A stretch of 21,211 nt of DNA from a virus. The stretch is taken from positions 1-21,211 of the IMG/VR virus record IMGVR_UViG_3300025759_000858, one strand, 5' to 3'. A program made the translations under genes and the position numbers. Every line of letters starts with the position of its first letter. The first letter of the stretch is position 1. Of this stretch, positions 884 to 20,725 are shown in pieces. Below the pieces are notes generated by a model. That model was not told the DNA's origin. It saw only the letters and a program-made list of their open reading frames with translations, and did no database searches.

Positions 884-3322
884 ATGTCAAGTACAAAAAA
901 CTACGGAAGTTTCCCTGATCCGTTAGCATCCTTCGTAGAGAAGACTGCGAAATCTTATGGATTAAAATACGCTCGTGCTATCATGGGGCAATGGGGTTCT
1001 TCAAATGAAACAAGTTCCTTATATAACCGTAGACTTAAAGAATTTAATACCAATAGAGATTACGCAAACGGAACGCAAGATACATCAAAATACAAACAAG
1101 TTTTAAACTCTCTAGACCCAAACAATGGTGACGGGACTTTATTAAATATAGATTGGTCACCAGTACCCATTGTACCTAAGTTTGTAAAGATAGTAGTAAA
1201 CAAAATCCTTTCTCGTGAGCCTTATCCCAATCTAGAAGCGGTAGACCCATTATCACTCACAGAGAAGGAGCGTAAAAAGGCAGAGGTACAAGCGGGAGTT
1301 GAAAATAGAGAGTTTTTCAACAAGCTAAAAGAGGCTGGTCTAAACCCAGGAATAGATGTAGATAAACTTCCCGACAGCCCTGAAGAAGCAGAAATATTTC
1401 TAGATACCAATATTAAGGTAGCATCAGAGATTGCTGCACAGATAGCAACCAACCTAACTCTTCAATGGAACGACTTTCCCGAAACTATTTATCGTAGAAG
1501 TGTTGAGGATTTGGTAAGCGTAGGGATGGCTGTGGTAAAAAGGGATAACGACCCAAACTACGGCATCACCACAAAGTATGTTGATCCTGAATATTTCGTA
1601 CACTCACAAACGGAGGACGCTACGATGAACGACCTCAAGTATGCGGGACATATCCAGCGCATGACCATTGAGGAACTAAAACGTATATCTCGTGGTCAGT
1701 TCGAGGAGGAACAGTACGAGCAGATGGCACGTCAGGTAAGCACTAGATATTCCAACGACCCTACAAAATTCAACAATAGTAATTACGATAAGACGTTACA
1801 AAAAACAATATTTGGATATGACGAGTATGTCGTTGAGGTGTTGGATTTTGAGTTTATGTCATCCGACTGTCTCTATTTTGAGGAGAAGGAGTCTAGGTTT
1901 GGAAACGTAGGATTTTACTACAAGGGGCAAAACGAACCTACTATGCCTTCGGGCAGTGTTTTTGAGCGTAAGGCTCATAAGATGGAACACGCCACAGTAT
2001 ACGGAGGGAAGTTTGTCGTAGGGACAAAGTTTTTATTTGATTACGGATTAAAGAAGAACTTGCCGAGAAACGTCCACGATATTACCCGCACTAAGATGTC
2101 GTACAGCGTCATTGCTACGAACATACGTAGGATGATGCCTAAGTCTATGGTTTCTAGCATCAAGCAGTATGCTGATATGATGCAACTAGCACACCTAAAG
2201 CTTCAGCAGTCTATTGCTAAAGCCAAGCCAGACGGTCTTATTATAGATATTGAAGGATTGGAGAATGTTCAGCTAGGTCGTGGTGGTGAACTGCAACCGC
2301 TAGAAATACAAGACATTTACGAACAGACGGGTGTGTTTTACTATAGGAGTAAGAACCCTGAAGGTGGATTCCAAAACCCACCAGTAAGGGAGATAGGAAA
2401 TAGGATTAGAAACATTCAAGAACTTATTGCTCTATACAATCAATACCTAAATATGATTCGTGATACTACGGGTCTTAATGAGGTTGTAGACGGATCAACA
2501 CCTAAAGGTGACTCACTCGTAGGCGTTAGACAACAAGCTATATCAGCTTCCAATAATGCTATTTACGACATCACCTATGCATCACAAGTACTCTACAAAA
2601 GAGTATGTGAGGATATAGTGAAATGTTTACAAGTGCTTTCTCCAAAGTCTATACTATACAAGGTTTATGAAAAGGCGGTAGGTGAAACCAATATGAGCAT
2701 CCTATCATCGTTTAAAGATATGCCTATGTATAACTTTGGCGTTCGTGTAGTAACTAACATGAATGATGAAGATAGAGTGTATCTGGAGCAAAATATTCAG
2801 CAGTCTATCGCCCAAGGGGAGTTAGACCTTGAGGATGCTATGGCTATACGTAGGCTTAAAGATGTAGACCAAGCGGAGAGATTGCTTGTGGTACGTAGAA
2901 AGAAGCGTATCAAGCAACGTCAGCAGATGGCGCAGCAAAACTCTCAGATGCAGGCACAAGCCAATCAACAAACGGCACAGGTAACAGCGCAACTAGAAGC
3001 CCAAAAAATGCAGCTAGAGGCGCAGCTAGAAGCTCAAAAAGCACAAATAGAAGCCCAGGTGAAATCCAAACTGCTAGAGGTAGAGTATGGATATAAAATG
3101 GAGCTTGAAAAGTTAAAATCTCAAACTCGTGATGCTAATGTTGAACGTCAGTATGGATTTCAACAACAAGCGGAAGACAAGCGAGAAAAGGCTAAAGAGG
3201 ATAGAATTAAGAAACAAGCTGTAGAGCAGTCTAAGCTAGTATCACAACGACAAGGAAAGCGAGGTGAACTTACTGAGGAACAAAGTGAGGACTTGTTATC
3301 TCAATTATTTAGCAATCAATGA
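884..3322 (+). CDS. Portal protein
   Basis: This 812-residue protein is the likely dodecameric portal at the capsid vertex through which DNA enters and leaves and to which the tail attaches. It follows the terminase directly and has the size of large portals of Bacteroidota phages, including crAss-like ones. The N-terminal half is mixed alpha/beta with a segment typical of such portals, IVPKFVKIVVNKIL. From about residue 670 to the end it becomes a long Gln/Ala/Glu/Lys-rich helix with repeated LEAQ units, ending in an acidic LLSQLF tail, as expected of the portal barrel or crown. The frame extends upstream to a TTG at 851, but that codon sits inside a promoter motif, so the ATG at 884 (MSSTKNYG) is chosen. 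Function rests on context, length and helix pattern rather than a catalytic motif. Confidence 0.75.
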   Translation: MSSTKNYGSFPDPLASFVEKTAKSYGLKYARAIMGQWGSSNETSSLYNRRLKEFNTNRDYANGTQDTSKYKQVLNSLDPNNGDGTLLNIDWSPVPIVPKFVKIVVNKILSREPYPNLEAVDPLSLTEKERKKAEVQAGVENREFFNKLKEAGLNPGIDVDKLPDSPEEAEIFLDTNIKVASEIAAQIATNLTLQWNDFPETIYRRSVEDLVSVGMAVVKRDNDPNYGITTKYVDPEYFVHSQTEDATMNDLKYAGHIQRMTIEELKRISRGQFEEEQYEQMARQVSTRYSNDPTKFNNSNYDKTLQKTIFGYDEYVVEVLDFEFMSSDCLYFEEKESRFGNVGFYYKGQNEPTMPSGSVFERKAHKMEHATVYGGKFVVGTKFLFDYGLKKNLPRNVHDITRTKMSYSVIATNIRRMMPKSMVSSIKQYADMMQLAHLKLQQSIAKAKPDGLIIDIEGLENVQLGRGGELQPLEIQDIYEQTGVFYYRSKNPEGGFQNPPVREIGNRIRNIQELIALYNQYLNMIRDTTGLNEVVDGSTPKGDSLVGVRQQAISASNNAIYDITYASQVLYKRVCEDIVKCLQVLSPKSILYKVYEKAVGETNMSILSSFKDMPMYNFGVRVVTNMNDEDRVYLEQNIQQSIAQGELDLEDAMAIRRLKDVDQAERLLVVRRKKRIKQRQQMAQQNSQMQAQANQQTAQVTAQLEAQKMQLEAQLEAQKAQIEAQVKSKLLEVEYGYKMELEKLKSQTRDANVERQYGFQQQAEDKREKAKEDRIKKQAVEQSKLVSQRQGKRGELTEEQSEDLLSQLFSNQ

Positions 3323-3327
3323 TTTAG

Positions 3328-3335
3328 TAAATTTG
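3328..3335 (+). promoter_or_regulatory. Bacteroidota -7 promoter element (TAAATTTG)
   Basis: TAAATTTGTAA begins 6 nt after the portal stop and 23 nt before the next ATG. It is followed by an A-rich leader typical of Bacteroidota translation starts. It matches TAnnTTTG and recurs almost identically at 7738 and 18178, supporting a real promoter for the tail block. Confidence 0.6.
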
Positions 3336-3350
3336 TAAAAAAATAAAAAA

Positions 3351-3629
3351 ATGGCAAAATTTTTTAGAAACAGTGCTGTAAATCAACAAAGCTTTGGTGC
3401 GGCAGGGTTTAAACACATTACTGTAACTACCGATGTTACTGGACTAGATGTTGTTGCTATCACAGTTTTAGAAGAAGCTACAGTGGGCGCAAACGGCATT
3501 GTCACTACAACTGGTGATAATTTAGCTAGTGGTACTGTAATTCCAGCAGGGCTAACAATTTATGGTGATTTTACTAGCATTCAGTTAAGTGCTGGAAAAG
3601 TAATAGCATACCATAGAGCATTAGGATAA
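3351..3629 (+). CDS. Small beta-rich structural protein (decoration or tail accessory candidate)
   Basis: This is a 92-residue protein of unknown function. The sequence alternates short hydrophobic and Thr/Gly/Ala-rich stretches (TVTTDVTGLDVVAITVLEEA), predicting an all-beta fold with no membrane segment or signal peptide. It resembles, from memory, small proteins that sit beside portal and fibre genes in marine phages and carry the same GLDVVAITVLEEAT core. The first gene behind a strong -7 promoter, it ends one base before the next ATG, so it is probably co-transcribed with the adsorption genes. A role as a head decoration or tail accessory subunit is inference from position and fold only. 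Confidence 0.5.
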   Translation: MAKFFRNSAVNQQSFGAAGFKHITVTTDVTGLDVVAITVLEEATVGANGIVTTTGDNLASGTVIPAGLTIYGDFTSIQLSAGKVIAYHRALG

Positions 3630-3630
3630 T

Positions 3631-4725
3631 ATGGTTAAAACAAATCTATACGACAAGTCTTCTTTGGTTGTAATACCAGATGGTTATGTAGAAGGTAAAA
3701 TGTGGGTAACAAAGCCTACGGACACTTTTTTTACATTTACTAGAAACACCTCTAACGTTTCTTACGTTGGTAAAGACGGCTATTTGAAAAAAGTTGTATC
3801 AGATGCTAACGTTCCAAGGTTAGATTACTCTTTAGGAGTGCCTGCTTTTTTAATAGAAGACTCTTCTATAAACCTTGTACCTTATTCAAATATTGAAGCT
3901 GCGGGATACAGTTTAAATGGTGCTACTATTACAGAAAACGCTACCAATAGTCCAGAAGGCACACAAAACGCAAGTTTAATTACAGGGTCTAATAGCGGTT
4001 ATGTTTCTTCAACTAGTATTACTGTAAGTCTAGGCGATCTATATGGCAAAAGCTTATACATAAAAAACATAAACTCTTCTGAATCTAAAATAGAGTTCGA
4101 GAACGTAGGATACTCTTTTAATATCGAGTGGGACGGTGAAACCTTATCTGCGATAACTAACCACAATAACCCTACAAAACAAACAGTAAAGTACAAATAT
4201 TTAAAAGATGGTTGGTATAGGGTTTATGTTACTGAATTAGCAACTAGCACATCATCTGTAGTTAAAATATATCCTAGTGTAACTAGTTCAAGTGGCACAA
4301 TAAGTTGTTATGGTGTTCAACTAGAGCCAGGAGAACCGTCAAGTTTAATTCACACCTCTGGGTCTTCCGTTACACGACCTGCTGAAACTACTAACTCTTA
4401 TTCAATTAGCTTACCCGAAACAGGGACGATATGTTGTTTTACTGGTGGAACTTCCGCTGGGGTGATGTCGGTTTTAGGCGAGTCTTTTACACCTAGTGCT
4501 GAAGAAAATAAAATAGCAATTGCTTATCAATCAGATAGTACAAATCCATCTTCAGTAGATAAGTTAAACATAAGCTTAAACGGGCGAATAGTCGTAAAGA
4601 AAGAAGGCACATACGATGTTTCTAGCTTATCAACTTTAAGTTTGGGTCAAGGTAATTTGTATAAAGCTTTTTACTTTATAAATGAGTTTTTAATAGACTC
4701 TGAATTAAACGATATAACAGACTAA
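3631..4725 (+). CDS. Tail-associated protein with lectin-like (concanavalin A-type) domain
   Basis: This 364-residue protein is likely a carbohydrate-binding tail or fibre component. The N-terminal part has the arrangement common in phage tail proteins: a Tyr/Thr-rich strand region, a VPRLDYSLGVPAFLIED segment near residues 61-77 and a NLVPYSN motif (81-87). A beta-sandwich-like middle follows (about 95-225, with KDGWYRVYVT). Next comes YGVQLEPGEPSSLIHTSG with SVTRPAE (about 227-252), a signature I recall from many phage proteins with a lectin-like domain. No catalytic residues are evident. It overlaps the next gene by one base (TAATG). Binding of host capsule or exopolysaccharide is inferred from the domain pattern and from the neighbouring lectin-like and esterase genes. 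Confidence 0.55.
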   Translation: MVKTNLYDKSSLVVIPDGYVEGKMWVTKPTDTFFTFTRNTSNVSYVGKDGYLKKVVSDANVPRLDYSLGVPAFLIEDSSINLVPYSNIEAAGYSLNGATITENATNSPEGTQNASLITGSNSGYVSSTSITVSLGDLYGKSLYIKNINSSESKIEFENVGYSFNIEWDGETLSAITNHNNPTKQTVKYKYLKDGWYRVYVTELATSTSSVVKIYPSVTSSSGTISCYGVQLEPGEPSSLIHTSGSSVTRPAETTNSYSISLPETGTICCFTGGTSAGVMSVLGESFTPSAEENKIAIAYQSDSTNPSSVDKLNISLNGRIVVKKEGTYDVSSLSTLSLGQGNLYKAFYFINEFLIDSELNDITD

Positions 4726-5735
4726 TGAGTGTATTATTTAACATATCATCTGACACGTCATCTAAAATTGTTTTAGAAAGCGATTCTGTAGAAGACTTAA
4801 ATTATGTGTTTAATTCTTCGCATTCAGATGTTGTAGCAGCATACAGTTTTAGAAGACTCTCCCCAGATTATTACGGTGCTTTAGTTGAGGTAAAGGCAGG
4901 GAGTGAAACAAAAGACTTTTATCCTTTAGGTAATGGAAAGATAGATATAGATGAATTGCTATCTTTTATTGGTACTTCAAACGGGAGTATAGTTAGATTT
5001 TATAATCAAGCTGCAAATTCTAAAGTGTACGATAACCCTTTAGATACTTATACCTCGCCAGACATTACCACTGGAAACGCTTATGCAAAGCCTATTGCAA
5101 GACAACCACAAATAATAAGACAAGTAGAAGAAACTGTTGCAGTATTAAGTAGAAAAAACGGGCTAATTTCAGCACCCTTATTACAAGTGATACCCGACAA
5201 TACAGATCCACCTCCAGATCCACCCCTGCCGCCAACTATTGAAAAAGACTGGCTAAGAGTCAATAGCAATACAAGTAACAAAATCACAGGTGATATGTTT
5301 GCGTATTTTGTAGGCTCACATGATGGTACAAGCAGCAACAATGCTATGTTTTCAAAACGTCTAGATGATAGCAATAAAGAATATGAGTTCATATATACAA
5401 GTCCTACAAACGTGCGTTATTCTGATTCTACTGGTTCTGTAGATTTAACTGTTTCTGCTAGTAGTGATTTGCGAATACATTCTTTTAGTAGAGATAAAAC
5501 AAATAATGATATTATTGACCTACAAGTAAACGAAACATTTTCAAATGGTAATAATCTATCGGGAACTATAAACACCACAACCTCAAAACTATACATAGGA
5601 GCAAGACCGTCTGAAGATTATGAGTTTTTAGGAGACTTCCAAGAGCTTGTCATATTTAATAGCTATAAAGATGTTAATGAAAAAGCTGCTATACTAAATA
5701 AAGTAAACAAATATTATAACGCATATACGATCTAA
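4725..5735 (+). CDS. Tail protein: arabinofuranosidase-B-like N-terminal region plus lectin-like C-terminal domain
   Basis: This 336-residue protein has two modules. Residues about 39-99 (AAYSFRRLSPDYYGALVEV through GSIVRFYNQAANSK) resemble a segment recalled from the alpha-L-arabinofuranosidase B catalytic family as it occurs in many phage tail proteins (AYxLRxLxxxYxGP, then TWYDQSGN). Conservation is partial and no active site can be assigned. A proline-rich linker (DPPPDPPLPP, 161-170) separates it from a C-terminal beta-sandwich (about 175-336) ending in LYIGARPSEDYEFLGDFQE, typical of LamG/concanavalin-like lectin folds. It overlaps both neighbours by one base (TAATG). The likely role is polysaccharide recognition in the tail; enzyme activity is doubtful. 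Confidence 0.55.
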   Translation: MSVLFNISSDTSSKIVLESDSVEDLNYVFNSSHSDVVAAYSFRRLSPDYYGALVEVKAGSETKDFYPLGNGKIDIDELLSFIGTSNGSIVRFYNQAANSKVYDNPLDTYTSPDITTGNAYAKPIARQPQIIRQVEETVAVLSRKNGLISAPLLQVIPDNTDPPPDPPLPPTIEKDWLRVNSNTSNKITGDMFAYFVGSHDGTSSNNAMFSKRLDDSNKEYEFIYTSPTNVRYSDSTGSVDLTVSASSDLRIHSFSRDKTNNDIIDLQVNETFSNGNNLSGTINTTTSKLYIGARPSEDYEFLGDFQELVIFNSYKDVNEKAAILNKVNKYYNAYTI

Positions 5736-7051
5736 TGTTAGGATTAGGAAATTTATTAGGAAAGGTGTCTAATGTTATCGGACTACCGTCTTGGCTAAAG
5801 GATTATTTTGATAACACCTCTTTAGCTGATACAATCGTTGATGACAAGTGTGTTGAAAACAGAGGTAAGTTTTATAATAACAAAACAAGAGAAGGTCTAA
5901 TAGCTGACAGGCTTACCCGTAATATAGGTAGCACCTCTGAAAACTATGACAATACCTTCTCGTTAATAACATCCCTTATGGATGAAACACCTGTTATATT
6001 TCCAACAGTAGATCCTAATGATGCTACTAAAGCCATAAAGTTTTTTGTATTAGGAGATTCATTAACTGCTTATATAAAGCGTAGAGACAAGGTTATAATG
6101 TCTATATGTGCGGAAAATGAAAAAATATCTTTAGATGAAGTTGACACAGCTACTAGACAATATTTTCAAGATGATAGTCAATATGGAGACTATCAAGGTG
6201 ATGATGTAGAAATTGCTCACGATTTAAGGTTATATGATTATAGCACTATTGAGGATAGCGATTTAGATTTTCCTAAAAATGATTCTGACTATCCAGAAGG
6301 TGGTTCTGATTCAGAATTTAGCAACTATTACGCTAACCCACTCAAACGCTTCCCAACAGAATTAACTCATTATGGAGTAGGAGGGAGTTCTGCGGTTCAT
6401 CACAAATACATATTTGACCATAATATAAGTAATCAAGACTTTATATCGGACAACGTAACCCCTATACTTTGGTATCTAGATTTTTCTAATGAGTTTCAAG
6501 GAAGTGAGTCATTAACTATAGAATCGGACGCTGCTGCTATTCAAAATATGGTTAACGATGCTATAGATAATGTAATAGCTATTGTTGAAGCTGCAATAGC
6601 TAAAGGGATGAAAGTTTTATATACTATACCTCCTCCTTATAGATTAACTCCTTCAGAATCAGATTCTTCTGGTTATGGTAGTTTTTATAATAAAAGACAA
6701 GCTATCTTTTTGGGATATGCTAGTCCTCCAGTTAATCCAGATCCAAACGGTCCTGCTTACGTTAATAACGGGTCTGGCACTACCGCTGGTTCTAATTTTG
6801 ACTCTATAATAGACTACTTAGATGCTAAACAAACACAAAATCCCACACACTTAAAATATGTGGATGCTTTTGCCCCATTATTAACCTACGACACGAGTGT
6901 ATATTCTAGCAAACAAGATGCTTACATAGCGGGTGAAATTGAAATAGACCCTAAATACACATTTGACGATGATTGGCATCCTAACGCTGCCGCTTTTCGT
7001 GTTGTAAAAGAGCAGGTGTACCCAAAGCTTTTAGAAATCATAAACAGTTAA
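5735..7051 (+). CDS. SGNH/GDSL-type hydrolase (candidate polysaccharide deacetylase/esterase of the tail)
   Basis: This 438-residue protein carries the SGNH/GDSL hydrolase motifs. Block I is FFVLGDSLT with the nucleophile Ser109. Block II is YGVGGSS (213-219), supplying an oxyanion Gly. A possible block III Asn is in LDFSNEF (249-255). Block V is DDDWHPN (411-417), giving Asp412 and His415 of the triad. There is no signal peptide. A long acidic insertion (about 130-200, rich in Asp/Ser/Tyr) separates blocks I and II. The family hydrolyses ester bonds, often O-acetyl groups on sugars. Between lectin-like tail genes it probably acts on host surface polysaccharide during adsorption. The substrate is not readable from sequence. 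The assignment to the superfamily is firm; the role in the virion is inference. Confidence 0.75.
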   Translation: MLGLGNLLGKVSNVIGLPSWLKDYFDNTSLADTIVDDKCVENRGKFYNNKTREGLIADRLTRNIGSTSENYDNTFSLITSLMDETPVIFPTVDPNDATKAIKFFVLGDSLTAYIKRRDKVIMSICAENEKISLDEVDTATRQYFQDDSQYGDYQGDDVEIAHDLRLYDYSTIEDSDLDFPKNDSDYPEGGSDSEFSNYYANPLKRFPTELTHYGVGGSSAVHHKYIFDHNISNQDFISDNVTPILWYLDFSNEFQGSESLTIESDAAAIQNMVNDAIDNVIAIVEAAIAKGMKVLYTIPPPYRLTPSESDSSGYGSFYNKRQAIFLGYASPPVNPDPNGPAYVNNGSGTTAGSNFDSIIDYLDAKQTQNPTHLKYVDAFAPLLTYDTSVYSSKQDAYIAGEIEIDPKYTFDDDWHPNAAAFRVVKEQVYPKLLEIINS

Positions 7052-13696: not shown

Positions 13697-13857
13697 TGAC
13701 GGAATCAGACTTCAGACTAATTCTACTAAACGCAACAGCCTTTACAATATCTATGGCTCAAGTTGAGATGGCTCTCAAGCTAATGCTTCTAATCGTATCT
13801 ATCGGATACACCTTACAACGCTGGTATCTTCTTCGGAAAGACAAGGCTAAAAAATGA
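13696..13857 (+). CDS. Small membrane protein (53 aa), holin-like candidate
   Basis: This is a short gene of 53 codons in the gap between the basic protein and the histidine kinase. It starts at the ATG overlapping the upstream stop (TAATG) and ends in ATGA overlapping the kinase start. The protein begins MTESDFRLILLNATAFTISM and has a hydrophobic stretch about residues 27-40 (LKLMLLIVSIGYTL) followed by a basic cytoplasmic tail (QRWYLLRKDKAKK). An amphipathic helix precedes it. Overlap on both sides and sensible composition argue that it is translated. A holin or a membrane partner of the kinase are both possible; nothing decides between them. Confidence 0.65.
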   Translation: MTESDFRLILLNATAFTISMAQVEMALKLMLLIVSIGYTLQRWYLLRKDKAKK

Positions 13858-15086
13858 AACTCTCGTTACTATCTAAGATATCTTTAGCAATAGCCATTGC
13901 TATTATGATATCTTTTTTCTCTTATCAAACGGCTTTAGTTATACAGTATACTAAACTTACTATGAAGTCTGTTTGGATAGGATGGGGAGCAGTAGTTTTA
14001 TTTATGCCGTTCTTTTTCTTTGTGGTAGTAGAGTATATTAGAAAAGTTAGATATAAGTTTCAGTCTATAGACGATACGCTTTCTGCGATTAATCAGTCTA
14101 ATGCCCTAGTAGAGTTTGATCCTGATGGTACAATACTTTCGTGTAACAATATATTTTGTCAAACAACAGGTTATTCCAAAGAAGAACTTGTAGGAAAATC
14201 ACACAGGATGCTTTTACCTAATACTATTGATGTTGATGGATACAAAAAGTTTTGGTACGATTTAAAAAAAGGCAAGGTTAAAAGTGGTGAGTTCTTACGG
14301 ATAAACAAAGAAGGTGAAGATTTTTGGATATACGGAAACTACAATCCTATTAAAAATCCATACGGAGAGGTTTATCGTGTGCTAAAGATTGCCTCTGATA
14401 TTACAGACAAAAAACTCATTGAGCTTGAGGTAAGCAAAAAGAATGGGTATCTAGAACACGCTGCAAAGATTCTAAGGCACGATATGCATTCTGGAATCAA
14501 TACATACATTCCTAGAGGATTAAACTCCTTAAAACGCAGATTAACACAACAAAAAATAATAGAGTTAAAAATATCAGCACCGCTTAAAATGATTCAAGAG
14601 GGGTTGATACACACACAAAAAGTATACAAGGGAGTCAAAGAGTTTACTAACCTTGTAAAGAATGATGCTCAACTAGAAAAGAACGTAGTAAACCTACGAG
14701 ATATTCTGTTGAGTTACTTATCGTCAACGTCATACATTAAACAGGTAGAAGTAAAAGAACTAGTAGATTATAAAGTCAATGAGGCTTTGTTTTGTACTGC
14801 TGTAGACAACTTAATTAGAAACGGACTAAAGTATAATGATAACTCTACAAAGCGAGTTTCTATTTACATGGAAAAAGAAAATACTTTAGTAGTAGAAGAC
14901 AACGGTAGGGGTATGTCTCAAGAAGATTTTGAGAGGTACTCTAAAGCTTACGCAAGAAAAGAAGACCAAGATGAAAACGGAAGCGGTCTTGGATTAAACA
15001 TTTGTGTAGCAATCGTTGAAGAACACGGTTTTAAAATAACAGCAGAAAAATTAGAACAAGGAACAAAAATAAGAATACAACTATGA
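13854..15086 (+). CDS. Membrane-bound PAS-domain sensor histidine kinase
   Basis: This 410-residue sensor kinase autophosphorylates on His and passes phosphate to a response regulator. Two membrane segments (about 9-30 and 39-62) are joined by a very short loop, so no periplasmic sensor domain exists. A PAS domain follows (about 75-185: NALVEFDPDGTILSCNN, TGYSKEELVGKSH, closing with ASDITDKK). The H-box is ILRHDMHSGIN with phospho-acceptor His209. The ATPase domain is intact: N-box VDNLIRNGLKYN (Asn319, Asn323), G1 box VEDNGRGM (348-354) and G2 box GSGLGLNI (376-383). It overlaps the upstream 53-residue gene and the downstream regulator by 4 nt each (ATGA), implying coupled translation. Active-site completeness suggests a working enzyme. 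Sensor kinases are rare in phages; the signal is unknown, probably cytoplasmic or in the membrane. Confidence 0.9.
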   Translation: MKLSLLSKISLAIAIAIMISFFSYQTALVIQYTKLTMKSVWIGWGAVVLFMPFFFFVVVEYIRKVRYKFQSIDDTLSAINQSNALVEFDPDGTILSCNNIFCQTTGYSKEELVGKSHRMLLPNTIDVDGYKKFWYDLKKGKVKSGEFLRINKEGEDFWIYGNYNPIKNPYGEVYRVLKIASDITDKKLIELEVSKKNGYLEHAAKILRHDMHSGINTYIPRGLNSLKRRLTQQKIIELKISAPLKMIQEGLIHTQKVYKGVKEFTNLVKNDAQLEKNVVNLRDILLSYLSSTSYIKQVEVKELVDYKVNEALFCTAVDNLIRNGLKYNDNSTKRVSIYMEKENTLVVEDNGRGMSQEDFERYSKAYARKEDQDENGSGLGLNICVAIVEEHGFKITAEKLEQGTKIRIQL

Positions 15087-15520
15087 TTGACTCTATATTA
15101 TTAGTAGATGACGAAGACTTATTTCACTTAGTGTTTGAGGATGCGTGTAGCCTTCTTGACATGACACTAAGCTTACAAGCATTAAACTCTTCAGACGAAG
15201 CAGACCGCCTCTTTAAAAAGTGGTTTGAAGAAAGTCCCGCAACAGATAGACCAGAGTGTGTGTTTGTAGACCTTAACATTATAGGATCTAGCTTTGATGG
15301 TATTGAACTAATACGCAAAATCAACACCGACTATGGTAATGGTGTGGTGATAGGTATTATCTCCTCATCAGATGACAACCAAGAAATTGATAAAGCGAAA
15401 GCTGTAGGCGCACAGTTTTGGATTATTAAGTCTGACGAAATAGAGCCACGCCTAGAGGAGTTTGTAAAAGACTACGATGGCTACGTGGCTAGAACTGCTC
15501 CATTTAAAATCTATAAATGA
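15083..15520 (+). CDS. Single-domain response regulator (receiver only)
   Basis: This 145-residue protein is a stand-alone receiver domain. The N-terminal SILLVDDED gives the acidic cluster (Asp9, Asp10, Glu11). The phospho-acceptor is Asp63 in CVFVDLNIIG. The signalling Ser/Thr is Ser94 in GIISSSDD, and the conserved Lys116 is in FWIIKSDE. There is no room for a DNA-binding or enzymatic output domain, so phosphorylated protein must act by binding a partner, in the manner of CheY- or Spo0F-type regulators. It overlaps the kinase by 4 nt and the next membrane gene by 4 nt, making the kinase the obvious phosphodonor. The start ATG is fixed by the overlap. The likely partner is the adjacent coiled-coil membrane protein or a host protein; this is inference. 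Confidence 0.9.
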   Translation: MIDSILLVDDEDLFHLVFEDACSLLDMTLSLQALNSSDEADRLFKKWFEESPATDRPECVFVDLNIIGSSFDGIELIRKINTDYGNGVVIGIISSSDDNQEIDKAKAVGAQFWIIKSDEIEPRLEEFVKDYDGYVARTAPFKIYK

Positions 15521-16062: not shown

Positions 16063-16360
16063 TTGGGCAGATAGCGTTAGAACTTGGGCAAGTGGCTATA
16101 AGGATAGCGTATCTGTTGATTACGATATGTCTCAGATGCGTTACATCTATGTACACAAAGACCATAAGGATAGTTGGAGAGGGGGCGTTGAAGACAAAGC
16201 TAATCTAGCCACTGCTAATTGGCAGTATTCTATAGTTCCTACGTTTTTTGCTATTATGGTAGCACTTATCATATTTGCAATAATACTATATAGAGACAAC
16301 AACAAGGCTTTAAATGAAAAAAGAAAAGATACAATTCTTGGGATGATGAAGAAAAAATAG
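16043..16360 (+). CDS. Small single-pass membrane protein
   Basis: This 105-residue protein has an N-terminal soluble part rich in Asp, Trp, Tyr and Lys (residues 1-60), one membrane segment at about 63-83 (YSIVPTFFAIMVALIIFAII) and a basic C-terminal tail ending MMKKK. There is no signal-peptide cleavage motif. The start ATG lies 20 nt inside the preceding gene. It is the last gene of the operon; no hairpin terminator follows. Spanin, holin partner or signalling accessory are all possible, and none is supported by a motif. Confidence 0.65.
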   Translation: MPQKKNSWADSVRTWASGYKDSVSVDYDMSQMRYIYVHKDHKDSWRGGVEDKANLATANWQYSIVPTFFAIMVALIIFAIILYRDNNKALNEKRKDTILGMMKKK

Positions 16361-16375
16361 AAGCGGTATAATTCG

Positions 16376-16383
16376 TAACTTCG
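16376..16383 (+). promoter_or_regulatory. Weak -7-like element (TAACTTCG)
   Basis: TAACTTCG differs from TAnnTTTG at one position and lies 35 nt before the small gene at 16419. A neighbouring near-repeat (TTCGTAACTTCGTAGC) surrounds it. It is a weak candidate for reading the 16419-17766 genes independently. Confidence 0.25.
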
Positions 16384-16418
16384 TAGCTCGTTTTTGTTTA
16401 ACCTATAAATATTTTCTA

Positions 16419-16520
16419 ATGAGCGACAGCTTTGCAAATTTCGTAAACGAATTAGAATCAGCAGAACAACCAACCTGTAACATTGAAAACCCTGAAGATT
16501 GCGAAGCCTGTGGTAGCTAG
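16419..16520 (+). CDS. 33-residue Cys-containing peptide
   Basis: This is a short gene of 33 codons in the 181-nt space between the operon and the next basic gene. The peptide starts MSDSFANFVNELESAEQPT and ends in a cluster of three cysteines (TCNIENPEDCEACGS), which could bind metal or form disulphides. The ATG follows an AT-rich leader. I recall similar short peptides with the same C-NP-D/C-E-A-C-G end in other marine phage genomes, which supports a real gene. It is too small for any fold-based call; function unknown. Confidence 0.55.
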   Translation: MSDSFANFVNELESAEQPTCNIENPEDCEACGS

Positions 16521-16541
16521 ATAAACCTTTAAACAGTCCTT

Positions 16542-16724
16542 ATGAAAGCAAAGAAATCCAAAGTAAACGAAGCTGGAAATTATACAAAACCAGGAATGAG
16601 AAAGCGTTTGTTTGAAAGAATTAAGGCGGGAACAAAAGGAGGTAATGCAGGACAATGGTCAGCTCGTAAAGCACAGATGTTAGCACGTGAGTATAAAGCT
16701 AAAGGAGGCGGATATAAAAACTAA
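16542..16724 (+). CDS. Small basic conserved phage protein (60 aa)
   Basis: This 60-residue Lys/Arg/Gly-rich protein has conserved blocks AGNYTKPGMRKRLFERIKAG and GQWSARKAQMLAREYKAKGG. The family is widespread in marine tailed phages, from recollection, and its function is unknown. The basic composition suggests nucleic-acid contact. It overlaps the next gene by one base (TAATG). The adjacent gene starts with another widespread basic phage domain, so two related kinds of basic module lie side by side. Confidence 0.7.
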   Translation: MKAKKSKVNEAGNYTKPGMRKRLFERIKAGTKGGNAGQWSARKAQMLAREYKAKGGGYKN

Positions 16725-17506
16725 TGGCACTAGGTAAATCACAACGTTCATTAAAGGAATGGACAAGGCAAAAGTGGAGAACTTCGGACGGAAGTAAGTC
16801 TGAAGGTAAGAAGCGTTATTTACCAGATGCAGCATGGAAGGCTTTGAGTCCTGCGGAAAGGGCAGCTACCAATAGAGCAAAAGCAAAGGGTGATAAAAGC
16901 GGTAAACAATTTGTACCGCAACCTAAGAATATTGCAAAAAAGGTTAAGAAGTATCGGTCATACGAAGAGGGGGGTAATGTTACCGACCCTCCTCGTAGAC
17001 CTAATACTGCTAGTGTTTCGGATACCACAAACACATTGCAAGGACCAGGATCACAAGAGATATTAAGAAGGCAACGATTTAAAGAGTCTACCTTTAATCC
17101 TAAAGCAGTATCTCCTGCGGGGGCTAAAGGTTTGGGTCAGATTATGCCTAGTGTAAAAGCGGATGCTGTAAAGGCGGGTATAATAAAAAAGGAAGACAAC
17201 TTGTTTGATCCTGCGGTAAACAAGAAGGTGCAGAATTGGTATATGGAAAATTTATACAACTCTTCATTTATCAATAAGCCTAATCAAGAGAATAAGGTGC
17301 GTTTAGCAAAGACATTGGCAGCGTACAATTGGGGGCGTGGTAATTTATCCAATTACCTCAATCAGCAAAAGAAACAAGGCACAGATATCTACAAGTCTTT
17401 AGATTGGTTGGATGGACTACCGCTAGAAACACGTGACTATGTGCAAAAAATACTATTGAAAGAAAATCGTAAATTTGAAGATCAACTAAAAAAGGCATCT
17501 AAATGA
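16724..17506 (+). CDS. Lytic transglycosylase fused to a basic N-terminal phage domain
   Basis: This 260-residue two-part protein carries an N-terminal module (about 1-80: SLKEWTRQKWRTSDGSKS, RYLPDAAWKALSPAERAATN, KQFVPQPKNIAKKVKKYR). The module resembles the basic DUF5872-type domain of phages and large viruses; the family name is from memory. The C-terminal part (about 110-245) is an SLT-type lytic transglycosylase: catalytic Glu121 in RFKESTFNPKAVSPAG, then AKGLGQIMP (134-142), AAYNWGRGNL (199-208) and PLETRDYVQKIL (233-244). It cleaves peptidoglycan between MurNAc and GlcNAc. There is no signal peptide, so it either enters the periplasm through a holin at lysis or rides in the virion and acts at DNA entry. 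It overlaps the next gene by 4 nt. Confidence 0.85.
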   Translation: MALGKSQRSLKEWTRQKWRTSDGSKSEGKKRYLPDAAWKALSPAERAATNRAKAKGDKSGKQFVPQPKNIAKKVKKYRSYEEGGNVTDPPRRPNTASVSDTTNTLQGPGSQEILRRQRFKESTFNPKAVSPAGAKGLGQIMPSVKADAVKAGIIKKEDNLFDPAVNKKVQNWYMENLYNSSFINKPNQENKVRLAKTLAAYNWGRGNLSNYLNQQKKQGTDIYKSLDWLDGLPLETRDYVQKILLKENRKFEDQLKKASK

Positions 17507-17766
17507 AACCTGTAAAAAAATATATGGACGGAGGCGCTGGTCCAGGAAAAAAGCGTAAAGCGGTAAAAAGTAAAGCTTCAGCAGATTATTTAGCTAAAAA
17601 AGAAAAAAGCAAAAAAGAGAAAGAAGAAAACGCTTTACGTATACAGCGTGAGAGACGTGAAAAAATGGCTTTGAAAGCAGAAAAGGCAGGTGACTTTGAA
17701 CGTGCAAGGCGTATTCGTTCTCAAGGAGAGACACAAAAAGATAAGGAAACTGAAAAACGTTTTTAA
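17503..17766 (+). CDS. Highly charged small protein
   Basis: This 87-residue protein is very rich in Lys, Arg and Glu with almost no hydrophobic core. It starts MKPVKKYMDGGAGPGKKRKA and then forms a long charged helix (KKEKSKKEKEENALRIQRER and on) with FERARRIRSQ near the end. The YxDGG-type N-terminus resembles other small basic phage proteins of marine genomes. It overlaps the transglycosylase by 4 nt and stops just before a terminator. A role in virion assembly or DNA contact is conceivable but unsupported. Confidence 0.6.
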   Translation: MKPVKKYMDGGAGPGKKRKAVKSKASADYLAKKEKSKKEKEENALRIQRERREKMALKAEKAGDFERARRIRSQGETQKDKETEKRF

Positions 17767-17773
17767 ATAAAAA

Positions 17774-17793
17774 AGAGGGGCAAAAGCCCCTCT
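17774..17793. terminator. Bidirectional terminator between convergent genes
   Basis: The stem AGAGGGGC/GCCCCTCT (8 bp) with an AAAA loop is flanked by an A-run on the left and a T-rich run on the right, so it can end transcription from either side. It sits between the last + strand gene of the lysis group and the minus-strand gene. Confidence 0.8.
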
Positions 17794-17795
17794 CT

Positions 17796-18101
17796 TTATT
17801 TTTCGTAGATGGTTATTCTTTTAAATTTAAACCCTCTACTACTTACATATTCGTAGGTGTCATCCTCTCGGACAACAAAGAGAAGCGATCCTTCTCTATC
17901 TACTTCAACGACATGGAGTTTGTTGATTCTTTTCTTTAGCGTATTGTAATCATCTTCTACAACAAACGCATCAAACAACTCACCATCTTCGGTGGCTATT
18001 TCTACTTTTTTGTAATCCAAGTCATTGATAACACTTGGTACACTTTGTGCGACTGCTTGACTCCCCAAGACCATCGCTAACATGAATAATACTCTTTTCA
18101 T
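17796..18101 (-). CDS. Small secreted/periplasmic protein (only minus-strand gene)
   Basis: This 101-residue protein has a classical signal peptide: MKRVL, a hydrophobic core FMLAMVLG and an Ala-rich cleavage region SQAVAQ-S at about residue 19. The mature part of about 80 residues is rich in Asp, Glu, Val and Tyr with alternating strands (KKVEIATEDGELFDAFVVED, LLFVVREDDTYEYVSS), suggesting a small beta protein. No Cys follows the signal region, so it is not an obvious lipoprotein. It converges on the lysis genes across a bidirectional terminator and stands apart from them in direction. This is the pattern of an independently expressed accessory gene, such as a superinfection-exclusion or host-modifying factor; that role is inference. 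No family recognised. Confidence 0.7.
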   Translation of the reverse strand: MKRVLFMLAMVLGSQAVAQSVPSVINDLDYKKVEIATEDGELFDAFVVEDDYNTLKKRINKLHVVEVDREGSLLFVVREDDTYEYVSSRGFKFKRITIYEK

Positions 18102-18177
18102 AATAATGGTTGATTAATACAAGCAAGTAATAATATTCACACGATATAAACAAATAATATTGTATGTTTTTTTATAT

Positions 18178-18185
18178 TAAATTTG
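18178..18185 (+). promoter_or_regulatory. Bacteroidota -7 promoter element (TAAATTTG) for the capsid genes
   Basis: TAAATTTGTAAC lies 24 nt before the scaffold ATG in the 108-nt space between divergent genes. Over 11 bases it equals the motifs at 3328 and 7738. A TTG at 18160 lies 15 nt upstream, somewhat close for the -33 element. It probably drives the scaffold and major capsid genes. Confidence 0.65.
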
Positions 18186-18209: not shown

Positions 18210-19355
18210 ATGAGCGATATAGAAAGCGCTGCAAAACAGTTAGGGATAGACATTAGTGATGACCCTAGCACGTTTGATGCAACACCTACGGAGGAATCTA
18301 CTCAAACAGTAGAAGATAACGTACAAGAACCTGTACAAGAAGAAGTATCTCAAGAAGTACAAGAAGAGGTACAAGAGCCTGTACAAGAAAATACTGCTAC
18401 CGAACCTCAGCAAGAGGTGGAAGAGCAAAGTTCTTTAAATAACGATGAAGATTACGATGTCTCGGAGCAAGAGCTTAATGAGATGGCTGTTAGTATGGTA
18501 AGCGAAATGCTAGGATACGATGACATGACCATTGAGCAATTATCCGAACTAGTAAATAGAGAGCCAGAAGAGCCACAATTGCAAATTGATGAGAGGTTAA
18601 AACCTATTCTTGATTTCGTTGAGAAGACCGGTCGTTCTCCAGAAGATTGGTTTAGATACCAACAGCTGAATCCTTCCGAAATGGATGATTTATCAGCAGT
18701 GCGTCTATCCATTCAGAATGACTATCCCGACTTAACATCACAAGAGGTTGACCGCTTAATGAACCGTAAATATAAATTAGATTCAGAGCGCTTTGATGAA
18801 GATGAAATTGCGGATTCAACACTTCAATTGAAAATTGATGCTACGAAAGCTCGACAGGACATTTCTTCCCTACGTGAAGGCTACACTTTACCAGTGGAGA
18901 CTACTACTGCCCAGGAAGAGATACAAAGTCCTTTTGATGAGAGTTGGTATACCAACATGCAACAAGAAACCTCAGCACTTGAGGCGGTTGAATTTAAATT
19001 GCCCAATGGCGAATCGTTCAATTATGGATTGCGTGATGAGTACCGCCAACAACTCATTGATAAAAACTCACGACTCGAAGAGTTCTTCGACCAATATGTG
19101 GAAGGCGATGGAGCGTGGAATATTGACAAGTTGAACATGCATCAAACAGTTGTAGACAACATAGACGAAATTGTCAAGAGTGTTTACCAACAAGGTTTGA
19201 GTGATGGGCAACGTAAGGTTGTAAGTAATGCGTCTAACGTACAAGCACAATCTCCGTCAAATACTCCACAGCAAGGTGGTCAAGATGCACAGATGGAGCG
19301 ACTACTTAGAGAGTTGGGTGGTAATGGAAACGTAATGAATATTAAAGGTTTTTAA
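18210..19355 (+). CDS. Acidic scaffold-like head protein
   Basis: This 381-residue, strongly acidic protein lies 11 nt ahead of the major capsid gene, the usual place of the scaffold that shapes the procapsid. The N-terminal 80 residues are low-complexity Glu/Gln/Val/Pro repeats (VQEPVQEEVSQEVQEEV). The middle (about 85-240) is helical and acidic with ERLKPILDFVEKTGRSPEDW and TSQEVDRLMNRKYKLD. The C-terminal part includes PNGESFNYGLRDEYRQQL and a polar Gln/Asn/Ser region before a final VMNIKGF. Scaffold proteins typically bind the capsid through a C-terminal helix; here the very end is short and Gly-rich. No protease motif is seen. The call rests on composition and position. Confidence 0.65.
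   Translation: MSDIESAAKQLGIDISDDPSTFDATPTEESTQTVEDNVQEPVQEEVSQEVQEEVQEPVQENTATEPQQEVEEQSSLNNDEDYDVSEQELNEMAVSMVSEMLGYDDMTIEQLSELVNREPEEPQLQIDERLKPILDFVEKTGRSPEDWFRYQQLNPSEMDDLSAVRLSIQNDYPDLTSQEVDRLMNRKYKLDSERFDEDEIADSTLQLKIDATKARQDISSLREGYTLPVETTTAQEEIQSPFDESWYTNMQQETSALEAVEFKLPNGESFNYGLRDEYRQQLIDKNSRLEEFFDQYVEGDGAWNIDKLNMHQTVVDNIDEIVKSVYQQGLSDGQRKVVSNASNVQAQSPSNTPQQGGQDAQMERLLRELGGNGNVMNIKGF
18321..18388 (+). repeat. Short direct repeats (GTACAAGA x5)
   Basis: Five copies of the octamer GTACAAGA begin at 18321, 18333, 18357, 18369 and 18381, all multiples of 12 nt apart. They encode the VQEPVQEE-type low-complexity stretch and could expand or contract by slippage in steps of four codons without breaking the frame. 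Confidence 0.7.
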
Positions 19356-19366
19356 AAAAATAAAAA

Positions 19367-20725
19367 ATGGCTTTTACATCAACCCCTACGGATTTTAGCC
19401 CTAGTTCTATTAAGAAACTTGATCCGGCTAAATACACATCCCTCTCTGATTATATCAATGAGGTGAACAAACCTGATAATCGTGACGCTTTAGTAAAGAC
19501 GTACGGTAATCAAGGTATTACAGGCTTCCTACAAATGGTGGGAGCAACAAAATCTAGCGGTAGTGCTGATGAAGTACAGTACTGGGAAGAAACTAGACTA
19601 CACGCTAAAGCGGTAGGTTCAACAAGTGCTTCAGGTGTTTGGACTTCAGGTACAAATGATGTATTACGTCCTAACGATGTGATATTGATTCCTGCTTCAG
19701 GTATTCGTGCTATTGCTGTACCAAGTGCAACAACATCCGGTTCATTAGACCTTGTTGATTTGGCTACTAATGATACTGTAAATTCTCTTACTAGTAGTTC
19801 ATTTCCAATCGTTGGTAACTTGTTTGCTCAGGGATCTGACCAACAAACTAGCTACTTGGAGAGCAACGTTGTAAAGCGTACAAACCCTTATATGATTATC
19901 AAAGACATCTTTAAGGTAACAGGTTCTCAAGCAACTAACATTGGTTGGATTAACTTGGGTAACGGTGACTACCGTTGGTACGTAAAAGGTGAGCAAGATA
20001 CTCGTCAGCGTTTCATGGACAAGCGTGAAATGATGATGTTGTTAGGTCAAAAATTCTTAGAGGATAACGACCCCAATACGGCAGGTATTCAAGCTGCAGT
20101 TACAGATATTTCTGGTTCAGAAGGTTACTTCTCTGCTATTGAAAATCGTGGTATGGTTCACACTGGTCTTATTGACACATTAGGTGAGCTTGACCTTATC
20201 GTTAAGCAGTTTGACAAGCAAGGTGCTGGTTCTGAGTACGCATTGTACGTAAACCGTGACCAAGACTTGGCTATTGATGATATGTTGGCTTCTGCTAACT
20301 TACTAGGGTCTACTGCTGTTCATGCTGATGGTTTAACAGGTGCTGGTTCTGCCGCTTACGGTGCGTTCAATAACAGTGCTGAAACTGCGATTAGCTTAGG
20401 GTTCAAATCATTCTCTCGTGGTGGATACACTTTCCACAAGCACGATTGGAAGTTGTTGAACGACCCTACATTGTTGGGTGATTCTGTTTTCAAAGGTGTT
20501 GCTATTCCAATGTCAACTGTAGTTGACCCACAAAGTGGAGATCGCAACCCATCTTTGGAGATGAACTTCAAGAACACTAACGGTTACTCTCGTGAAATGG
20601 AACACTGGATTACAGGTTCTTTCATGGGTGCTACTAACGACACTAAAGACGTTGCTCAGTTCAACTATCGTTCTGAGATGTGTTTGGTAACTCGTGCTGC
20701 AAACCGTCACATGCTTATCAAGTAA
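19367..20725 (+). CDS. Major capsid protein
   Basis: This 452-residue protein is the likely HK97-fold shell subunit. It follows the scaffold-like gene and precedes a strong terminator. The N-terminus (KYTSLSDYINEVNKPDNRDALVKTYG) is a helical arm. Then comes GFLQMVGATKSSGSADEVQYWEETRLH, a pattern I associate with major capsid proteins of Bacteroidota phages. The central part contains WYVKGEQDTRQRFMDKREMMMLLGQKF and a beta-rich region DWKLLNDPTLLGDSVFKG. The C-terminal part has a typical FNYRSEMCLVTRAANRHMLIK finish. Codons look biased toward C-ending forms (AAC, TAC) compared with its neighbours, consistent with high expression, judged by eye. No cleaved pro-domain is evident. Confidence 0.8.
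   Translation: MAFTSTPTDFSPSSIKKLDPAKYTSLSDYINEVNKPDNRDALVKTYGNQGITGFLQMVGATKSSGSADEVQYWEETRLHAKAVGSTSASGVWTSGTNDVLRPNDVILIPASGIRAIAVPSATTSGSLDLVDLATNDTVNSLTSSSFPIVGNLFAQGSDQQTSYLESNVVKRTNPYMIIKDIFKVTGSQATNIGWINLGNGDYRWYVKGEQDTRQRFMDKREMMMLLGQKFLEDNDPNTAGIQAAVTDISGSEGYFSAIENRGMVHTGLIDTLGELDLIVKQFDKQGAGSEYALYVNRDQDLAIDDMLASANLLGSTAVHADGLTGAGSAAYGAFNNSAETAISLGFKSFSRGGYTFHKHDWKLLNDPTLLGDSVFKGVAIPMSTVVDPQSGDRNPSLEMNFKNTNGYSREMEHWITGSFMGATNDTKDVAQFNYRSEMCLVTRAANRHMLIK

Follow-up and report, generated by a model that had tools for sequence, protein, structure and literature searches.

What is a lone minus-strand gene doing between the lysis and capsid genes of a phage? The question is raised by the IMG/VR virus record IMGVR_UViG_3300025759_000858, a fragment of 21,211 bases analysed here over its whole length (the window), where an earlier note had pointed to a small secreted protein that might, for example, block a second infection. 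Our answer is that this gene is the predicted secreted half of an exchangeable two-gene module with a fixed place ahead of the scaffold-capsid operon. Within a phage clade the scaffold gene, the divergent promoters, the signal peptide, the terminator and the N-terminus of a convergent partner protein are kept, and the mature secreted domain and the C-terminus of the partner are replaced together. No report of such a module was found in the open PubMed Central (PMC) literature. As for its role, the reading that we favour, with a probability of roughly 40%, is that of a periplasmic, type-specific self-exclusion factor that would act on the partner domain of incoming sibling virions. The hosts are probably Bacteroidota, to judge from the promoter type and from the capsid relatives, which include Flavobacterium, Cellulophaga and Maribacter phage proteins (30-33% identical). 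The parts of the module in the window are the following.

17796-18101, minus strand: the reported gene, family A of the slot, a predicted secreted protein of 101 amino acids (open reading frame with homologues in L003, L005, L008, G056 and L211)
18045-18101, minus strand: signal peptide, codons 1-19, the part kept within the phage clade (from the sequence and a rule-based check)
17799-18044, minus strand: mature domain of 82 amino acids, the exchangeable part, with no relation detected to the mature domains of the 10 other slot families
17774-17793, both strands: bidirectional terminator hairpin common to the two convergent genes, with T-runs on both strands
17503-17766, plus strand: partner gene, 87 amino acids, with an N-terminal KKYMDGG motif and a C-terminus that varies with the cassette family (from C-terminus comparisons)

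A predicted secreted protein and a partner that vary together

Capsid queries, each keeping its best 80 loci, gave 204 loci including the window, and the sample is therefore biased to the window's clade. Removal of 49 duplicates, two regions that were too short and one without the scaffold gene left 152 distinct slot regions, among which 36 carry a minus-strand signal-peptide protein (the cassette) in the slot. This count includes L034, L086, L128 and L132, which were missed by the signal-peptide rule and added by eye or homology, and leaves out L195, flagged by the rule and removed by eye as a false positive. When their mature parts were compared with phmmer, the 29 distinct slot proteins fell into 11 families, and hhalign detected no relation in any of the 55 pairs of families (best probability 3.6%).

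The export signal in front of these domains behaves differently from the domains themselves. Phages whose capsids are 97-99% identical can have promoter and signal-peptide DNA that agrees at 93-100%, after which the identity falls to that of chance at the cleavage site or shortly beyond it. In L088, L090 and L093 (capsids 98-99% identical) the 60 nucleotides leading up to the cassette ATG show 100% identity and the signal-peptide DNA 95-98%, and from codon 20 the identity is only 20-30%, the level of unrelated DNA; a similar break occurs some 15-20 codons later between L128 and L137 (capsids 96.5%) and between L070 and L078 (97.2%). DNA identities of L086 were excluded because of wrong coordinates. 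The window and L002, with capsids 70% identical, have 70% nucleotide identity in the signal peptide and 23-30% after codon 19. Moreover, L132 and L137, with capsids 61% identical, have K cassettes that match each other at E 4.5e-58, which means that transfer between clades has taken place.

Within families, the ratio of nonsynonymous to synonymous substitution rates (dN/dS) of the mature part is below 1 in all 12 pairs (the window protein not being among them), so the slot proteins are working genes under purifying selection, and positive selection by point mutation was ruled out on the same ground. Synonymous divergence (dS) of the mature part exceeds that of the capsid gene in 10 of the 12 pairs, being lower in L012-L034 and L090-L094, which fits the import of diverged alleles. 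The capsid genes of L070 and L078 have a dS of 0.12, against 1.6 for the mature part and 0 for the signal peptide.

Across the terminator lies the convergent plus-strand gene, whose product combines a clade-constant N-terminus bearing Y..GG repeats with a variable C-terminus. It is because this C-terminus changes with the cassette family that we speak of a two-gene module with paired variable ends. Among 28 partner C-termini (some near-identical), all 27 pairs matching at E<1e-7 belong to the same cassette family. With 22 chosen representatives, 13 of the 16 same-family partner pairs were similar at E<0.01; permutation of the labels gave a mean of 1.6, and 13 was reached in 0 of 5000 permutations. 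Where the cassette families differed and the capsids were at least 90% identical (13 pairs), no partners were similar (E 0.39 or more). In the cassette-less loci L062, L064, L067, L069, L087 and L076 the partner gene stops after the constant N-terminus. The window's own partner, rich in lysine and glutamate, shows weak similarity (best E 1.6e-4). A reading of the Y..GG motif as a virion tag was set aside as unproven; the motif is found in other genes of G003 (the contig of L091) as well, and its N-terminal form was not seen in the late region of phi38:1.

The gene in the window and its surroundings

The reported open reading frame starts with ATG and its stop codon occupies 17796-17798; the start at 17774 given in the earlier note takes in the terminator as well. 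That note called it the only minus-strand gene, and it is indeed the only minus-strand frame of at least 50 amino acids clear of plus-strand frames. The remaining ones lie mostly wholly within a plus-strand frame, with a few across a junction, and those at 16147-16473 and 16458-16655 extend into the gap 16361-16541. The frame is a real gene, because other phage contigs carry homologues in antisense orientation (24-41% identity); beyond what chance would give, homologues with matching layout occupy the same antisense slot. Its predicted signal peptide, MKRVLFMLAMVLGSQAVAQ, ends in AVAQ and is followed by S, and the signal peptide noted earlier is confirmed by inspection and by a home-made hydrophobicity rule, which together predict an exported location for the window protein and the other slot members. 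The N-terminal segment is the single hydrophobic one that can be read from the sequence; neither a lipobox nor a second such segment was found by eye.

Database searches with the window protein alone gave no relatives among viral contigs and bacterial genome contigs, matches at E 3 to 8 only in a collection of described phages, and no family above cut-off in Pfam, PHROG and PADLOC; the Pfam matches Tfb2_C, TumE, HTS and DUF863 were all below cut-off and were rejected. AlphaFold models were of low confidence (predicted local distance difference test, pLDDT, 53 and 56.7), a viral-library fold search with such a low-confidence model returned nothing at E<=0.001, and family A had no match up to E 1 in a PDB sequence search. 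Its relatives were found by reading the same slot in the loci around capsid relatives, which gave L003, L005, L008, L009, L010 and L020 (33-39% identity, E about 1e-10 to 1e-12). Two further copies are antisense beyond the packaging genes: that of G056 (24% identity, E 4.6e-8), upstream of the terminase and portal genes, and that of L211 (41% over 57 residues, E 1.3e-7), which ends at the contig end. A family A profile found no relative in bacterial genome contigs, so the gene is not one whose homologues lie only in host chromosomes, an outcome that the earlier note had considered. Searches of described phages with five of the families (A, B, E, H and K) gave no significant match. No such slot is present in phi38:1, Panino, elemoE and ctfjg026, the four examined among 87 capsid-matching described phages, where the order is portal, one structural or hypothetical gene, capsid. 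PADLOC models matched none of 10 cassettes at E<=0.01.

On the two sides of the gene the surroundings are as follows.

16724-17506, plus strand: SLT transglycosylase gene, upstream of the partner gene (PF01464, E 5.7e-18)
18124-18154, minus strand: degenerate divergent promoter of the reported gene (TTTG ... TACTTG), read from the sequence
18178-18185, plus strand: -7 box TAAATTTG of the scaffold-capsid operon promoter, 24 nucleotides before the scaffold ATG
18210-19355, plus strand: scaffold-like gene, the conserved right flank of the slot, named from its position, with no PHROG match
19367-20725, plus strand: major capsid protein, the anchor for finding relatives (phrog_13704 virion structural protein, E 7e-122)

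The neighbours thus agree with the position between lysis and capsid genes described before, and the hairpin at 17774-17793 with the bidirectional terminator. Perfect terminator stems occur in 22 of 30 distinct downstream flanks, with 1.0 expected. In the 108 base pairs between the reported gene and the scaffold-like gene, the -7 box TAAATTTG is of what we take to be the Bacteroidota type, and TAnnTTTG is present on the plus strand in 26 of 26 distinct gaps, the window included (2.8 expected). A minus-strand TTG-spacer-TAnnTTTG site scoring at least 6 of 7 was found in 22 of the 26 gaps (3.3 expected, shuffle maximum 8), the window, L002, L056 and L137 failing. All these expectations come from mononucleotide shuffles, and the counts overstate independence because the loci are related; the constant promoter spacer is partly built in, since the scan broke ties towards a spacer of 20. 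In the divergent promoter region proposed earlier, the scaffold side has its -7 box and the window's own minus promoter is weak. The idea of an independently controlled envelope accessory gene fits the terminator and divergent-promoter framing that recurs across relatives (with that weak promoter in the window), the kept signal peptide, and the presence or absence of the cassette among phages with 97-98% identical capsids (L076 vs L070, L072, L078 and L086).

Several other features of the window and its relatives may be recorded here. A PAS-domain histidine kinase (410 amino acids) followed by a response regulator (145 amino acids) is encoded at 13854-15520 of the window, in a phage; the kinase has a 71% identical copy in one of 20 related records searched (the contig of L014), and response-regulator-like frames are present in L014 and L011. 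In the tail region, 5735-7051 has a weak GDSL lipase match below cut-off. G003 encodes at 2834-3787 a protein of 317 amino acids whose beginning, MKKMKNYFVGGLINVAAG, is hydrophobic and rich in glycine and may be the mark of an ejection protein. At -2979 to -2355 relative to the capsid start of L007, and similarly in L008, two overlapping small plus-strand genes (113 and 122 amino acids) have signal-peptide-like or membrane starts in a spanin-pair-like arrangement. Group K slot proteins in L025, L026, L080 and L081 are on the minus strand and adjoin an amidase gene upstream of the capsid gene, confirmed as PF01510 (Amidase_2) in L026 and L080, with overlapping ends in L080.

Possible roles of the exported protein

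The earlier suggestion of a block to a second infection is compatible with these observations. We propose a type-specific superinfection exclusion, or self-immunity, which the exported protein would exert in the periplasm. There it would bind the partner protein, presumably brought in by a superinfecting sibling virion, at the matching C-terminal domain, and this binding would block DNA delivery; phages could then escape exclusion by exchanging the cassette/partner pair. Virion delivery of the partner is conceivable because crassvirus particles hold cargo proteins inside and an ejection channel has been proposed for them (PMC10172136). In a wider form, which we consider doubtful, the module may be a phage-borne polymorphic pair that defines exclusion types in a Bacteroidota phage clade, in which a virion-delivered protein with a constant N-terminus and an exchangeable C-terminus, and a convergent periplasmic antagonist with a constant signal peptide and a matching mature domain, would travel as one cassette.

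A number of points weigh against self-exclusion. Expression, secretion, binding and exclusion are all presumed, as is the place of the partner in the virion. The window's minus promoter is weak and scored no better than shuffles. The cassette is dispensable, as no cassette was detected in 116 of the 152 regions. The three same-family misses among the 16 partner pairs are L003-L005, L005-L009 and window-L003 (E 0.011), and 11 of the 24 partner pairs similar at E<0.01 are cross-family, the stronger links being B-F-I and E-G. The convergent gene of G056 has no convincing likeness to family A partners. For A2 (to which the window belongs), A3, C, D, H2 and J, six of the 13 partner groups, the only match is to their own sequence, which says nothing on pairing, and the partner test left out the K group (6 of the 36 regions, and the chimaeric L128). 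Ten partner proteins compared with Pfam and PHROG gave nothing passing cut-off and no hydrolase or toxin domain, and the one partner searched in described phages had no homologue. Finally, the two variable parts are contiguous, so that one recombination event could move both without any functional link.

This last point leads to another explanation, possible in our view if somewhat unlikely, in which a single recombination hotspot carries both parts along, the secreted protein acts on its own as an envelope accessory factor (for example in anti-defence or receptor masking) and the co-variation results from contiguity. In its favour, the variable segments lie 14-93 nucleotides apart with the terminator between them (277 in L074), breakpoints flank both, the cassettes are optional (36/152), the adjacent gene and the fibre vary in the same pairs too, and the partners of L005 and G056 lack a clear family match. 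Yet cassettes of one family still go with similar partners where the capsids are 53-64% identical (L088 with L012 and L034; L002-L014; weakly, window-L009). In L074, which stands outside the partner-pair statistics, the B-type partner domain is a separate frame and is still beside a B cassette. Moreover, profiles of the 13 partner groups had no match away from a cassette in 155 loci, these being stretches of mostly 8-13 kilobases (kb) around the capsid gene, not whole genomes.

Another possible role is in lysis, in which the secreted protein would regulate or inhibit a phage peptidoglycan hydrolase from the periplasm, in the manner of an antiholin or by setting lysis timing, and would be matched to nearby lysis genes. 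The SLT transglycosylase lies two genes away in the window, group K cassettes adjoin the minus-strand amidase, and T4 Spackle is a periplasmic lysozyme inhibitor (PMC7677548). We nevertheless find this improbable, as the 10 partner proteins are without a hydrolase domain, no transmembrane segment besides the signal peptide is visible by eye, and the small genes from fibre to slot in L088, L091 and L093 are 82-100% identical while the cassette has changed (lysis genes were not identified among them).

The tail fibre bears on a further proposal, that the secreted protein masks the host receptor of the phage's own fibre. In its favour, the collinear contigs G003 and G006, at mostly 80-100% identity, show five breaks, two of which are the slot (G003 14.0-14.6 kb) and the tail-fibre region (19.3-24.5 kb, the fibre being named by PHROG). 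The others measure 0.2-0.9 kb: one at G003 35.0-35.5 kb (about 0.4 kb), one at G006 1.2-2.1 kb (about 0.9 kb) and one at G003 47.3-47.5 kb (0.2 kb). The G006 fragment does not extend over G003 36-43.7 kb. The fibres themselves (G003 19282-24483 and the G006 equivalent) have 1789 and 1727 amino acids, a common N-terminus and differing sequences further on. Against masking, fibres are replaced and the cassette family is kept in L003-L005, L009-L020 and L031-L056 (cassette identity 69, 91 and 77%), where the best alignment of fibre-like frames covers 3-14% of the full length in identities, and also in L003-L009; L008-L009 was not used, the L008 fibre being cut by the contig end. A strict fibre-cassette link was dropped for this reason. 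The slot signal peptides, moreover, look by eye like the soluble-protein type, with a lipobox-like SSC in L081 only. Fibre replacement with a kept cassette family argues against a pure adsorption blocker, which we hold very unlikely, and the target of the self-exclusion we favour is probably not the adhesin.

Known systems and meaning for the phage clade

Bacterial polymorphic toxin-immunity pairs combine a constant delivery part and an exchangeable C-terminal domain with an adjacent, matching and exchangeable small protein. The module resembles them in its matched variable domains lying side by side, with the exceptions of L005, window-L003 and the cross-family links. It differs in being carried by phages, in its convergent genes and in that 10 partners showed no toxin or delivery domain.

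Among phage proteins, P22 SieA is likewise a phage-encoded envelope protein (predicted here) that acts on incoming related phages (proposed here). Escape mutations from SieA lie in the C-terminal regions of the ejection proteins gp16 and gp20, and SieA has three sequence types less than 30% identical and is not present in all relatives (PMC10883804). Unlike in our module, two SieA types that were compared share their target range, and the cited portions of that study describe no linked exchange with the target (PMC10883804); SieA is also an integral inner-membrane protein, whereas the window protein has one N-terminal hydrophobic segment only. T4 Spackle, again phage-encoded and periplasmic (predicted here), binds a virion protein domain, the gp5 lysozyme domain of the superinfecting phage (PMC7677548). 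Its target enzyme is known, family A has no PDB sequence match, and modularity with a constant signal peptide and a variable mature part is not described in the cited portions of PMC7677548. From phage spanins the window protein differs by the lack, by eye, of a lipobox or second hydrophobic segment.

Even without the mechanism, it is unusual in the evolution of phage genes for an export signal to stay in place while the mature domain behind it is exchanged for unrelated ones. If self-exclusion is true, the module would account genetically for exclusion types in this clade of phages, which is known here from metagenome contigs alone, with many unrelated periplasmic factors, each having a putative target domain named by linkage. 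What exclusion proteins recognise would then become testable pair by pair, and the module would be a marker for recombination between co-infecting phages.
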